Origin: Oscillatoriaceae cyanobacterium Prado104
GTDB lineage: Bacteria; Cyanobacteriota; Cyanobacteriia; Cyanobacteriales; Microcoleaceae
NCBI GenBank assembly: GCA_025454405.1
Contig: JALOON010000048.1
Span: 1 to 64,000, forward strand
Length of the DNA stretch: 64,000 nt
Reading direction: 5' to 3'
In this document: positions 13,736 to 18,138 of the stretch, in pieces
Layout: each line of letters opens with the position of its first letter
Numbering within the stretch: position 1 is the stretch's first letter
Program-made: the position numbers and the translations under genes
Notes under the pieces: model-generated
Told to the model about the DNA's origin: nothing
The model's database searches: none
Seen by the model: the letters and a program-made list of their open reading frames with translations, nothing else

Positions 13736-13936
13736 ATGGTTCACATTCGTTTTGAAGGACGTTCCTACGACTTGACAGAAAACCAACTGGGTATCGCTGC
13801 AGGAATGAGTGACAAGGCTATCAAGGAACGTCTCGCACAGCATTTTGATGTTAAGGGCGATCGATTCGAGTCTTACGTGCTCGATCGGCGTCCCAGCGGC
13901 GATTTAATCGTCCGCCCAGAAGCCGTTTACGGCTAG
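13736..13936 (+). CDS. Small ubiquitin-like (beta-grasp-type) protein ending in Gly
   Basis: The 66-residue protein has a pattern expected for a beta-grasp fold: strand-strand ([20 protein letters not shown]), a helix ([15 protein letters not shown]), then strands with [20 protein letters not shown] and a terminal Gly. A Gly C terminus is what an E1-like enzyme adenylates, and a ThiF/E1-like gene lies at 22647. A strong AGGAGGT ribosome binding site precedes the ATG. The same AATCCAAAATCG...GGAGGTA leader style precedes the Ro-like gene at 16696. The fold assignment is inference from sequence pattern and memory of similar cyanobacterial proteins. Confidence 0.6.
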
Positions 13937-13956
13937 GGCGTTCACACCCTCAGATC

Positions 13957-14007
13957 CCCCCCTTTTGTAGGGGCGGGCACGGGGGCACCGCCCCTACAAA
14001 AGGGGGG
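13957..14007. terminator. 20-bp perfect hairpin of the GTAGGGGCGG repeat family
   Basis: Arms 13957-13976 and 13988-14007 are perfectly complementary with an 11-base loop (GCACGGGGGCA). It begins 20 bp after the Ubl stop and ends 30 bp before the first Y-like RNA, so it could separate mRNA from the RNA genes. A 27-bp core (13972-13998) recurs exactly inside cobN at 38616-38642. Confidence 0.65.
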
Positions 14008-14036
14008 AGAAATACTCTCAAAGTCACCCTTTTTAA

Positions 14037-14165
14037 GTGGCGCATCCTAACAAAAGAAGCTTACAAACTGGTAACGTTCGAGCGATCGAATAGTAGGTTC
14101 AACTCCTACCCTCTCCGCCTCGTGGAGAGGGGTTTAAAAAATAGCTTCTTTAACTTGTGCGCTGC
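14037..14165 (+). ncRNA. Y-RNA-like element 1 (T-arm/acceptor mimic)
   Basis: Ends pair as a basal helix (14037-14044 with 14158-14165). An internal loop carries the conserved CCTAAC (5') and TAACTTG (3'). An upper helix AAGAAGCT/AGCTTCTT (14054-14061 with 14143-14150) follows. The distal part has a perfect T-arm (GTAGG-TTCAACT-CCTAC, 14093-14109), then a 7-bp acceptor-like hairpin CCTCTCC-GCCTCGT-GGAGAGG (14110-14130). A D-arm is missing. The order T-arm then closed acceptor is the YrlA-type topology. The strand is chosen from the T-arm reading and the neighbours. Confidence 0.75.
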
Positions 14166-14206
14166 CTCTAATACCTAAATTTTAAAAGTTTGAAAAAGCG
14201 ATCGAG

Positions 14207-14331
14207 CACTTCGCGCCCTAACAAAGGAAGCTTACATACTAGCTCTATGGTGGAGCGTTTCTCTCTAAAAGAAAAGGCTGCGGGTTCAACTCCCGCGTAT
14301 GAACAACGGCTTTCTTAACTTGCGCGAAGTG
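14207..14331 (+). ncRNA. Y-RNA-like element 2 with complete tRNA core in normal order
   Basis: The basal helix is 10 perfect bp (14207-14216 with 14322-14331), with internal loop CCTAACAAA / TTAACTT and upper helix GGAAGC/GCTTTC (14226-14231 with 14309-14314). The distal 71 nt (14233-14303) fold as a full tRNA: acceptor TACATAC/GTATGAA (6 of 7 pairs), TA, D-arm GCTC-TATGGTG-GAGC, G, anticodon arm TTTCT-CTCTAAA-AGAAA, 5-nt variable loop, T-arm GCGGG-TTCAACT-CCCGC. Loop position 33 is U and the formal anticodon is CUA. The acceptor end continues into the Y stem, so no free CCA end exists. T-rich GCTTTTTTAT follows at 14341. Confidence 0.8.
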
Positions 14332-14369
14332 ACTTTTAATGCTTTTTTATAAGTTTCGATCGACCTTTT

Positions 14370-15666: not shown

Positions 15667-15750
15667 AACCCCACGAATAAAACTCTTTATTTCCTAGTGG
15701 AAGATGTCAGCGATACAAACTTAAAATTGGCGATGGAGGAGAATCATATT

Positions 15751-16212
15751 ATGAAAAATACCACGGTAATTTATCGATCGCCCGCAGAGATAGACAGTCT
15801 GATTCATGCTTTTGAAGAATGCAGTTTACCGCGAAGCAAGTGGACGCATGAAGCACATTTAACTGTCGGTCTTTGGTATCTGTTTGACGATTCCGAAGAA
15901 TCTGCGATCGAAGCGATGCGAAATGGCATTAAACGTTACAATTTATCCTGTGGCATTGAAGCTACAAATGACAGCGGCTATCACGAAACTCTAACTGTGT
16001 TTTGGATGCGCGCTATTAGCCGATATCTGGCTTCAGTTGCTAAGAATCGATCGATGGTAACTCTAGCTAACGGTTTGATTCAAAAATATGCCGATCGCAC
16101 TTTACCATTTCGCTACTGGTCACGCGATCGTCTGATGTCGTGGGAAGCTCGAAATAATTGGGTTGAACCTGATTTAAGGGCGATCGAATTAGCAAAAGTT
16201 GCCCTAAAGTAA
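15751..16212 (+). CDS. Conserved hypothetical protein with WTHEAHL motif
   Basis: This protein of about 153 residues is mainly helical with SKWTHEAHLTVGLWYLFDDS and SGYHETLTVFWM, so it has several His residues that could bind a metal or substrate. Similar stand-alone cyanobacterial hypothetical proteins exist, but I cannot give a function. ATG 15751 is chosen because GGAGGA lies 10 bases upstream; an in-frame ATG at 15733 and the frame start at 15697 are alternatives. It sits between two dispersed repeats in the Ro/Y-RNA locus, in the same orientation. Confidence 0.7.
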   Translation: MKNTTVIYRSPAEIDSLIHAFEECSLPRSKWTHEAHLTVGLWYLFDDSEESAIEAMRNGIKRYNLSCGIEATNDSGYHETLTVFWMRAISRYLASVAKNRSMVTLANGLIQKYADRTLPFRYWSRDRLMSWEARNNWVEPDLRAIELAKVALK

Positions 16213-16249
16213 GTTCAAACTAACATCTTGCAGCTTTCTCAAAAGTCCT

Positions 16250-16460
16250 GTAGGGGCGGGTTCGCCAAAAATCTTGGAAACAGTAGACATCTTAAATAAA
16301 CCCGCTCTGCCTCACGAAAAATACCTAAATAACTACGAGTAGAAAATTTCAGTTAAAACTGATATCAAGCACCAATATCAATTAGGGTTGTTCGTAGGTG
16401 GGGGCGGGTTTATTTAAGATATTTGCTACATTTAAAATTGTTGGCGAACCCGCCCCTACA
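16250..16460. repeat. Two GTAGGGGCGGGTT elements in opposite orientation
   Basis: 16250-16308 carries the element in forward direction and 16400-16460 in reverse (ends GGGGCGGGTTTATTTAAGAT and GAACCCGCCCCTACA). They fill the gap between the WTHEAHL gene and Y-like RNA 5. No gene is seen here. Confidence 0.7.
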
Positions 16461-16503
16461 AGATGGTTGACAATGGTGCAAAATTTTATTTAAAATCGCA
16501 GTT

Positions 16504-16585
16504 GTTGCCGCGCCCCAACCAGGAGAGCTTACATACCAACCCTGTAACGGTTCAGAAAAAAAGCTCCTCAAACTTGCGCGGTGAC
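16504..16585 (+). ncRNA. Y-RNA-like element 5, minimal, just upstream of the Ro-like gene
   Basis: The 82-nt element keeps the signature: basal helix GTTGCCGCGC/GCGCGGTGAC (16504-16513 with 16576-16585, two wobbles), a CCCAAC / AAACTTG internal loop and upper pairing AGCTT/AAGCT. The head is only a small AACC-CTGTAAC-GGTT hairpin; no tRNA mimic is present. It lies 110 bp before the Ro-like start codon and could be a stand-alone RNA or a leader structure bound by the protein to regulate its own mRNA. Confidence 0.7.
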
Positions 16586-16695
16586 TCTTAAAATTCATTG
16601 CCAAGCGTGCAACAACTGCCACCCTATTTTTGGATATTCCCAACAATCCAAAATCGAAAATCCAAAATCCAAAATCGATATGGGAGGTAGCACCA

Positions 16696-18138
16696 ATGAA
16701 TACTAACACAGCAGAACGCGACTTGCGTTTGGAAATGCTCAACAGCCTGCTCACCACACCTCACCGCCAATTGGAAAAGGTGGCAGAAATTCACAAATTA
16801 ATTGTAGAACTAGACCCAATTTTTTACGGTCATTTAGCTGTATGGTATCAGAATCACGGTGATGTTCGCGACCACAAAGAAGTGTTCGTTGGCAATTTGC
16901 TAACTTCGGCACTAACCGAACACCGCGATGCAGGTTTTATGATGCTGCAACAGTTCCCGCCCTATGAAGTTTCGCGGATTGTGGACTTCATGAAGCAACA
17001 CAAAAATAAGTTGCCCCGCAGCGCGCGCACGGCTGTAACTCGCTATCTGAAATCGCGGGAAAAGAACCCGCAATTTTTCGATCGCGCCGCCCTCCGCAGC
17101 CGCAAAGCAATGAAGCATTTGTACGCAACTTTGCACGTTAAGCCGAGCGATCGAGCTAATGCTATCCTGTTTAAAGACACTCCGCCGGAAGATTCTTTAG
17201 CGTTTGTTTTGAAGCAGCTAGCAAAAGCAGCAACTCCAGCGGAACAAGCGAATTTAATTGTTGAATACAAGCTGCCTTACACGATCGCAATTGGCGCAAT
17301 CAAACAACTAACTCCAACGGTTTTAGTAGCGCTAATTAACTCGATGTCGCCGCAGGAAGTTATTAACAATCTGAAATCGATTCAGTCTCGCGGCGCGATG
17401 GATCATCCAGAAGTCAAGCAGTTGATTGATGCTAAATTGGATGAAGCTGCAAAGAGCGATCGAGTTTCTGCTTACAAAGCAAATGTTGCCGGTGATGTTG
17501 CTAAATTCGATGCCGAGACAGCGAAAAAACTGGAAACGGTAACAAACGAACAGGTGAAAAAGCGCGGCAAAATTGCGAAATCGACTGGTTTGTTAGTTGA
17601 CAAATCGGGTTCGATGGAAAGCGCGATCGAAGTTGGCAAGCGCCTTGCTGCATTAATTTCTGGTATTTCTGAAGCCGCTTTGTTTGTCTATGCTTTTGAC
17701 ACGATGCCTTATCCAATAGAGGCAAATGGCAAAGAATTGACAGACTGGGAACGCGCTTTCAAACACATCAAAGCAAACGGCGGCACAAGCTGCGGTTGCG
17801 CGGTGGAAGCAATGCGGAAGAAAAAGCAGGTTGTCGAGCAATTCATCATTGTCACAGATGAAGGCGAAAACAGCAATCCTTATTTCGCGGATGCTTATCA
17901 AAATTACTGTCGCAGTTTGAACGTAATTCCTGATGTTGTCATCGTGCGAGTTGGTGCTTGGTGTACTTATGTCGAGAATCAATTGAAGCAGAAGCAAATA
18001 AGTGTAGAAACCTTTGCTTTTAACGGAGATTACTACTCGCTGCCGAATTTGGTGCCGATGTTAAGTCGTCCTTCGCGACTGGATTTGTTGATGGAAATTA
18101 TGGACACAGCATTGCCAGTGAGGGATGATAAGCGATAG
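16696..18138 (+). CDS. Ro60/TROVE-like vWA protein (Rsr-like)
   Basis: The 480-residue protein has a helical N-terminal two thirds, with [20 protein letters not shown] and the following helices resembling the HEAT-like ring of Ro/TROVE proteins. A C-terminal vWA domain has a complete [17 protein letters not shown] (DxSxS, about residue 302), GGTSCG (Thr) and IIVTDEGEN. Ro proteins are rings that bind misfolded RNA in the pore and Y RNA on the outside, and in bacteria help exonucleases such as PNPase. A strong GGGAGGT site fixes ATG 16696. Five Y-like RNAs lie directly upstream on the same strand. It is divergent from animal Ro60, so the name is by layout and context. Confidence 0.8.

Follow-up and report, generated by a model that had tools for sequence, protein, structure and literature searches.

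The question raised by this locus is what a cyanobacterial protein related to Ro60 may do with a row of Y-RNA-like elements whose outer ends resemble parts of the translation machinery. The locus lies in a stretch of 64,000 nucleotides (the window, to which bare positions refer) of an 8.5-Mb assembly from Oscillatoriaceae cyanobacterium Prado104. It contains five such elements on the + strand, 5' of a gene on the same strand (16696 to 18138) that encodes a protein with a vWA domain, an arrangement proposed in an initial annotation and confirmed here. Ribonucleoprotein particles (RNPs) of Ro proteins and Y RNAs are known to include RNA partners with tRNA-like ends, and we know of no agreed general function for them. 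The sequences make it very probable that a Ro-like protein with mimic RNAs exists here. What such a particle would do is a more tentative matter, and with slightly less than even confidence we read it as a Ro60-like RNP that is induced by translation stress and displays mimics of tRNA and ribosomal RNA (rRNA) as baits or adaptors.

A distant Ro60 homologue and its RNA core

The protein is 480 amino acids (aa) long and is made up of a TROVE-related N-terminal part and a vWA domain with a DKSGS motif. Its closest records are cyanobacterial, from a metagenome-assembled genome labelled Richelia (94%) and from Microcoleus or Oscillatoriales (about 88-91%). None of the 35 family members in our alignment matches the Pfam TROVE model (PF05731) at E<=1 and the window protein has no NCBIfam match, so an ordinary TROVE member of the kind that these libraries detect was rejected. 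Matches to PDB sequences were weak only, with a best E of 0.075 and, in a second search, an E of 1. VWA_2 is found in 32 of the 35 members, vWA_Ro60 (PF25045) weakly in 7 at E<=1 (best E 0.0025), and the vWA part has a match to PHROG 850 (1.8e-6), annotated as 'RNA-binding protein'. Support for the Ro60-like identity that had been proposed comes from hhalign, in which the family was compared with 14 cyanobacterial TROVE proteins, a profile that itself matches solved Ro60 and Rsr. The alignment spans residues 20-459 with a probability of 97.3 and an E of 2.3e-11, and the N-terminal part alone reaches a probability of 88.6 and an E of 2.7e-6, with one negative control at 0.15. Judged by this profile comparison, the vWA protein is a distant Ro60/TROVE homologue. 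Genuine TROVE proteins are present in 30 of 292 cyanobacterial genomes; a search of the source genome gave no match to PF05731. Both proteins are carried by at least four genomes (G004, G008, G077, and G191) and are thus two distinct lineages.

The five RNA elements begin at 14037, 14207, 14370, 14711, and 16504, and the shared architecture first noticed in them is borne out as a common core. This consists of a basal helix of 9-11 positions (mismatches allowed), a 5' loop CCYAACN, an upper helix ending in AAGC/GCTT or similar, and a 3' loop RACTT before the basal helix returns. A scanner built to score the basal helix, the CCYAAC and RACTYG loops, and the upper helix recovered all five with scores of 56-64 and found only these at a score of at least 36 on both strands of the 64 kb. 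It was also run on loci L001-L107, a set in which L078-L107 in part repeat genomes of L001-L077, so that loci are not independent genomes. Here, there were 298 hits at a score of at least 40, compared with 1 in one round of local shuffling. The loci of relatives of the vWA protein hold 289 distinct elements when only identical sequences are merged, and 287 of these are on the strand of the gene. Fold z-scores against shuffles are -4.4, -5.4, -3.2, -3.0, and -2.7 for window elements 1 to 5, and 1 of 200 shuffles folds as well as element 5.

The RNA core and the protein occur together. In a sample of 195 genomes of the order, the Ro-like protein is found in 72, and the core pattern is present in 69 of these versus 9 of the 123 genomes without the protein, the latter with one hit each. 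A reversed control pattern gave hits in 5 of the 195 genomes, once each. The protein is found without the RNA pattern in G028, G076, and G109, the last of which has partial protein matches only. Elements beside the Ro-like gene, for which a search of cyanobacterial genomes had been proposed, are present at 70 of the 77 loci of the genome collection, with 219 elements altogether and a maximum of seven in one locus; several of these loci are broken off at contig ends. The source genome itself has at least two further elements on contig C87, one minimal and one an rRNA mimic. That the RNAs are Y-RNA-like is supported by covariation in three classes and by a match of element 4 to the Rfam YrlA model below its gathering score.

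RNAs that resemble tRNA and 23S rRNA

The core carries differing inserts, which were sorted into classes by regular expressions and by eye; counts are loci out of 70, and the census left out 4 elements without TACA. Class B is a tRNA in canonical order joined via its acceptor stem (60/70), while class C is a circularly permuted tRNA in which T arm, closed acceptor hairpin, and D arm follow one another (33/70). Two further classes, D (16/70) and E (20/70), resemble 23S rRNA. Minimal elements are found in 23 loci, and 30 elements in 23 loci are partial or unassigned. At least two of classes B-E are present together in 42 of the 70 loci.

The view that the window array carries tRNA mimics holds for several of its members, but element 3 and several inserts in relatives resemble 23S rRNA instead. 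Near-complete tRNA likenesses are found in elements 2 and 4. Element 2 (14207 to 14331, + strand) is a core with a canonical-order tRNA hung on its acceptor stem, and the mimic itself (14233 to 14304, + strand, anticodon CTA) is recognized by ARAGORN and by the Rfam tRNA model at 52.4 bits. Element 4 (14711 to 14854, + strand) has the permuted order of class C and is YrlA-like, matching RF02553 at 36.5 bits (E 1.1e-5), short of the gathering score of 69. Element 1 (14037 to 14165, + strand), with a T-arm and an acceptor-like hairpin, looks by eye like a partial permuted tRNA and has relatives of the same type, but element 5 (16504 to 16585, + strand) is minimal, a core and a short hairpin without a recognizable mimic. 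It has a promoter-like TTGACA-18-TAAAAT just 5' of it (16467 to 16496, + strand), a consensus match only.

Compensatory changes in related genomes, proposed as a check, were found in the permuted tRNAs and in classes D and E. The terminal stem and permuted tRNA-like domain of element 4 and class C are held by covariation: 15 of 31 pairs changed on both sides, and for further pair types the count is not equalled by any of 500 shuffles, in an alignment of 24 of the 33 elements of 118-135 nt (near-duplicates out; the 33 belong to 41 permuted elements) plus the window element, where the row from L089 is a doubtful member. For two-sided pair changes in classes C, D, and E, none of 500 shuffles reaches the observed counts, and slid controls give at most 9. 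As a separate observation, the T loop of Y elements in several Nostocales is broken by a GTACCC..GGGAA-type repeat or variant (L024:5141, L028:5484, L034:3983, L039:4360 and 5376, L042:4359, L046:5141, and L049:4176).

The anticodon arms of these RNAs combine constant and varying positions. Among 54 elements chosen for an arm with the 5' stem CTTGA, the loop being unconstrained in the selection, U33 is present in 52 and a purine at position 37 in all 54, with 32 different loops and 17 different triplets. In a 35-sequence alignment of the tRNA class, 156 of the 1135 differences between 123 close pairs, which are not independent, fall at the three anticodon positions, a share of 13.7% versus 2.3% expected by length. 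In this alignment U33 was a selection condition, just two of the three anticodon positions are among the most variable columns, and some columns outside the loop are equally variable. An unused loop would be expected to lose U33 and the purine at 37, and a serving tRNA to keep its anticodon; diversification of a displayed anticodon loop on a fixed scaffold thus fits these sequences but is not proven by them.

Class D is made up of the 3' strand of 23S helix 69 (H69), the H70/H71 sequence, and, at the opposite end, the 5' strand of H69, so that the module is opened in the H69 loop. Scored against the 23S rRNA of a same-genus genome, as all 23S likenesses were, the 17 class-D elements reach 36-50, while the best of 60 shuffles reaches 33. 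In the alignment of these 17 (L013, missed by the motif, is counted in the class census only), 18 of 42 pairs changed on both sides, including four of the six pairs of H69, a helix that was entered by hand. By this class alignment, window element 3 (14370 to 14676, + strand) is an H69-H71 mimic. Its description as a Y-RNA-like element was correct in that the element is real, but its length stems from an insertion of about 101 bp at 14519 to 14619 on the + strand (edges approximate). The insertion has inverted-repeat ends, resembles a miniature inverted-repeat transposable element, and has one 70% relative elsewhere in the genome. Element 3 is a class-D RNA with an insertion, and a simply long Y RNA is ruled out.

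Class E combines the sequence of the sarcin-ricin loop (SRL) with H42-H44 of the GTPase-associated centre (GAC). Against 23S rRNA, 20 of the 21 elements score 58-70 and the one from L096 scores 47, with 37 as the best of 60 shuffles, and examples align to 23S positions 1069-1137 and 1069-1148. The SRL sequence AGTACGAGAGGA is present in 20 of the 21 elements. By eye, short helices that differ between lineages close the loop. The consensus fold recovers H42, H43, and H44, and 17 of 52 pairs changed on both sides in an alignment of 21 of the 23 elements selected by length, with L121 added (L023, which looked like coding sequence, and L091, a permuted tRNA, were left out). One of the 21 elements is upstream of the Ro-like gene, and the other 20 are downstream, at distances of 1.5-5.8 kb from its start. 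The RNA is within 1.1 kb before the gene of p287, a conserved protein discussed below, in 14 of 21 class-E loci. Rfam places one class-E element above its cut-off (52.1 vs 50) as LSU_rRNA_archaea, and the sole large-subunit match in the source assembly is its own class-E element, at 47.9 bits and under the cut-off.

Three further observations touch on rRNA likeness. The GAC part of class E at L016:9725-9795 is called archaeal, not bacterial, large-subunit rRNA by Rfam. At G113:C1:7166836-7167465 there are three adjoining partial 23S matches about 20 bases apart, perhaps a partial rRNA copy. Inserts of a class F share a TGCAAGCC[TG]GA motif (L055:4132, L091:1281, L093:695, L094:704, L095:724, and L107:1276). 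The octamer selects 7 elements, of which that in L089 shares the octamer alone. Class F was rejected as rRNA mimics, as six octamer-selected elements score like shuffles for both rRNAs, and inserts from the four loci searched have no Rfam match.

It could be argued that all of these inserts are passive relics of duplicated tRNA arrays or rRNA that were caught by the Y core and have no function. Long tRNA arrays do stand in several loci, and element 3 is disrupted by its insertion. The compensatory changes already disfavour this explanation, as do the retention of the SRL sequence in 20 of 21 elements and the co-occurrence of RNA and gene, and we consider it highly improbable.

Promoter, neighbouring genes, and viral loci

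A possible link to stress comes from the promoter. According to the available part of PMC10272220, TrcR represses a silent operon of 26 tRNA genes in Anabaena by way of TGTAGTAT, which lies over the -10 box, and translation-blocking antibiotics induce this operon. The same source places rtcB, rsgA, and rimK in the TrcR regulon and describes Anabaena as without an RtcR homologue. In the window, this box is found at 13241, overlapping the -10 of a promoter-like TTGACA-17-TAGTAT (13220 to 13248, + strand) that lies 5' of a 66-aa open reading frame (ORF), the Y RNAs, and the Ro-like gene. A second box at 11921, in an equal context (11900 to 11928, + strand), precedes a GNAT acetyltransferase gene (12075 to 13055), which thereby has a TrcR-type promoter box of its own and has matches in 15 of 107 loci. 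At 2403, on the opposite strand, a third one stands without such a promoter context. The region is not enriched in promoter-like sites in general (10 vs 8.8 in shuffles). Among 67 distinct orthologous 66-aa ORFs, 47 have the box at most 900 nt upstream, compared with 5.3 on average and 14 at most for random stretches (300 draws). The box ties the locus to the published translational-stress regulon, of which we infer it to be a member.

The regulon also connects the locus with tRNA arrays. ARAGORN detects tRNAs that belong to no listed Y element in 30 of the 107 loci, an upper bound, since some of these are merged or missed Y elements. Runs of at least nine tRNAs are present in L011, L036, L041, L052, L054, L063, and L077, and in L134 an array of 25 tRNAs (L134:110-5637) is followed by five Y elements. 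The source genome has an array of 26 tRNA genes on contig C87 (L121:243-8634), and TTGACA with the box was found about 195 bases before its first tRNA. These genes surround a class-E RNA and, beside it, an RNA ligase (PF09414 and tRNA_bind, L121:6005-7291).

The ligase bears on another possible function, in which the mimics hold PNPase or another decay or repair enzyme at the Ro-like protein, so that damaged tRNA or rRNA is degraded or repaired, with different mimics recruiting different enzymes or presenting reference structures. This is the known role of the Deinococcus particle of Rsr, Y RNA, and PNPase (RYPER), as given in the available part of PMC8394870, and both the ligase beside the class-E RNA and the membership of rtcB in the TrcR regulon (PMC10272220, in part) agree with it. 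A generic tether, however, needs no multiple mimics, and at least two of classes B-E share 42 of the 70 loci. The ligase was not found in the DNA of the 107 Ro loci and was rejected as a constant partner. We regard such a tether as somewhat unlikely.

The conserved protein genes in the neighbourhood are those of the 66-aa protein, p287, and a ThiF/E1-like protein. The 66-aa protein (13736 to 13936, + strand), which has viral relatives, ends in YG, and this C-terminal glycine is kept in 69 of 69 full-length matches with no length change (29 of the 69 were aligned). Counts for its partners refer to the 64 loci that extend 5.5 kb or more downstream. The gene for p287 (21239 to 22102, + strand; invariant Cys in GICLSG/GICLAG) is present in 50 of the 64, that for ThiF (22599 to 23285, + strand; PF00899, 8.6e-27) in 51, and the two are found together in 50. 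Sequence searches of Pfam and PDB gave no convincing match for the 66-aa protein. These searches do not bear out its initial description as ubiquitin-like, which is plausible given the constant glycine end and the E1-like neighbour; a sulphur-carrier-like protein is a further candidate identity.

Two other explanations begin from this pair. In one, ThiF would activate the Gly-ended protein, which would then be coupled to any molecule bound by the mimic RNAs that the Ro-like protein carries. The invariant glycine and the joint presence of p287 and ThiF are in its favour, as are the viral loci, of which 4 of 6 have the small protein, 6 of 6 p287, and 4 of 6 ThiF. Against it, the Pfam and PDB searches lend the 66-aa protein no beta-grasp sequence support, and p287 is unlike an E2 profile: hhalign against a 3-sequence Prok-E2_D profile gave a probability of 0.21, and p287 was rejected as an E2 despite a Cys motif reminiscent of E2 enzymes. 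Conjugation of this kind is distinctly unlikely in our estimate. Alternatively, the 66-aa protein and ThiF, which we take to be comparable to a ThiS/Urm1-type sulphur carrier, could form a sulphur-carrier pair, with the RNAs as substrates or guides of enzymes that modify tRNA or rRNA. A ThiF-type E1 beside a small Gly-ended protein would suit this, and YrlA is a substrate of DusA and TruB (PMC8394870, in part). Modification leaves the likeness to GAC and SRL and the varying anticodons unexplained, and we judge it very unlikely.

The remaining genes are less constant. Between elements 4 and 5 are orfB (14881 to 15567, + strand, 228 aa) and orfC (15697 to 16212, + strand), neither with a family above cut-off, which have matches in 53 and 35 of 107 loci. 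Downstream of the Ro-like gene, a YoeB-like toxin ORF (18235-18890) is followed by a Phd/YefM-like antitoxin ORF (18903-19456) and then by two small ORFs on the opposite strand, by look another toxin-antitoxin pair. A search of six proteins against PADLOC defence families gave a single weak match only (orfB, 0.0081).

Viruses carry related loci. Their Ro-like homologues are 45-48% identical, and on one viral contig there are four elements, of which three are permuted tRNAs and one is canonical by eye. Three viral loci also have ten core hairpins of inverse topology, in which the 3' box, a capped basal helix, and the 5' box follow one another (L171:4033-6559, L166:3774-4729, and L167:3776-4443). 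Most fold as an additional arm on a tRNA whose acceptor stem is free, although that at L171:5856 does not. The same pattern finds no such elements in the cyanobacterial loci; all 10 are viral.

A possible bait or adaptor function and comparison with known systems

In the bait or adaptor reading, the common stem of each RNA would be the site bound by the Ro-like protein, on the pattern of other Ro-Y RNPs, and the exposed mimic would serve as bait for proteins that recognize that part of a tRNA or ribosome. Candidate prey include ribotoxins (anticodon or rRNA nucleases), translation factors, and enzymes of RNA repair or modification. The RNA set could then act as a panel of decoys or adaptors when translation is under attack, next to backup tRNA arrays. 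Ribotoxins and antibiotics are known to act on the SRL, the GAC, and H69-H71. For Salmonella, the available part of PMC7790460 proposes that YrlA, through its tRNA-like end, could competitively inhibit an anticodon nuclease, and the 23S-like RNAs would carry this decoy idea from tRNA over to the ribosome. It is also conceivable, although unlikely, that the particle serves immunity or quality control, with replicas of vulnerable translation parts baiting toxins, the Gly-ended protein and its E1-like partner marking or inactivating the catch, and the whole being shared with viruses, including a huge phage.

Several points weigh against baits or adaptors. The same part of PMC7790460 has the tRNA-like domain of YrlA uncleaved by the anticodon nuclease, and in permuted tRNAs that are opened in the anticodon, this loop cannot serve to attract anticodon nucleases. 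Minimal elements have no recognized mimic. As to regulation, 20 of the 67 upstream regions are without the TrcR box, and in several Nostocales the box varies in position, standing before the TTGACA rather than over the -10. The rRNA likeness is uneven as well: the nulls for the 23S scores were mono-nucleotide shuffles, and the lowest class-D scores (36) overlap the top scores of the tRNA class (34-37), so that the case for those elements rests on the alignment with their relatives. The class-E consensus does not draw the SRL hairpin and pairs its GUA with an upstream UAC; the SRL likeness thus rests on the sequence and the closing helix seen by eye. For further pair types, 252 of 500 shuffles reach the count of class D, which is no better than shuffles, and 38 of 500 that of class E, which is slightly better.

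If RNAs resembling tRNA, SRL and GTPase centre, and H69-H71 are indeed displayed in this way, the bait or decoy idea would become directly testable in culturable filamentous cyanobacteria under a defined inducing stress. They would offer a natural example of functional ribosomal centres rebuilt in RNAs apart from the ribosome, and would connect the TrcR stress regulon with Ro proteins and silent tRNA arrays.

Among the matches listed, we recognized no description of rRNA-mimicking Y RNAs or of this locus, and an earlier description is possible. The nearest known system is YrlA/Rsr (RF02553), which shares the stem formed by the RNA ends, the permuted tRNA-like domain, and the position beside a Ro-family protein; the Rfam consensus also has AAcUuG in the 3' strand before the basal stem, as here. 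It differs in that element 4 stays below the gathering score and the other classes are canonical tRNAs and 23S-like parts, that the protein has diverged beyond the reach of the TROVE model, and that a locus can hold up to seven elements. RYPER likewise joins a Ro-family protein to Y RNAs and is linked to stress, but the available part of PMC8394870 describes no mimic repertoire for it. The Salmonella rsr-yrlBA-rtcBA operon has a Ro-family protein and tRNA-like Y RNAs in a setting of RNA damage (PMC7790460, in part), whereas no rtcBA is among the Pfam-scanned neighbours here and the promoter box is of the TrcR type. The cyanobacterial trn operon and TrcR regulon have TGTAGTAT over the -10 in common with this locus, and in L134 and the source genome the arrays adjoin or contain these RNAs. 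The terms vWA, TROVE, and Ro60 are absent from the main text of PMC10272220, and its available part makes no mention of Y RNAs or rRNA mimics. Finally, jumbo-phage TROVE proteins are phage-borne members of the Ro family tied to RNA repair in the available part of PMC7824862, whereas the viral homologues described here belong to the new family, with arrays of mimics and, in three loci, hairpins of inverse topology.

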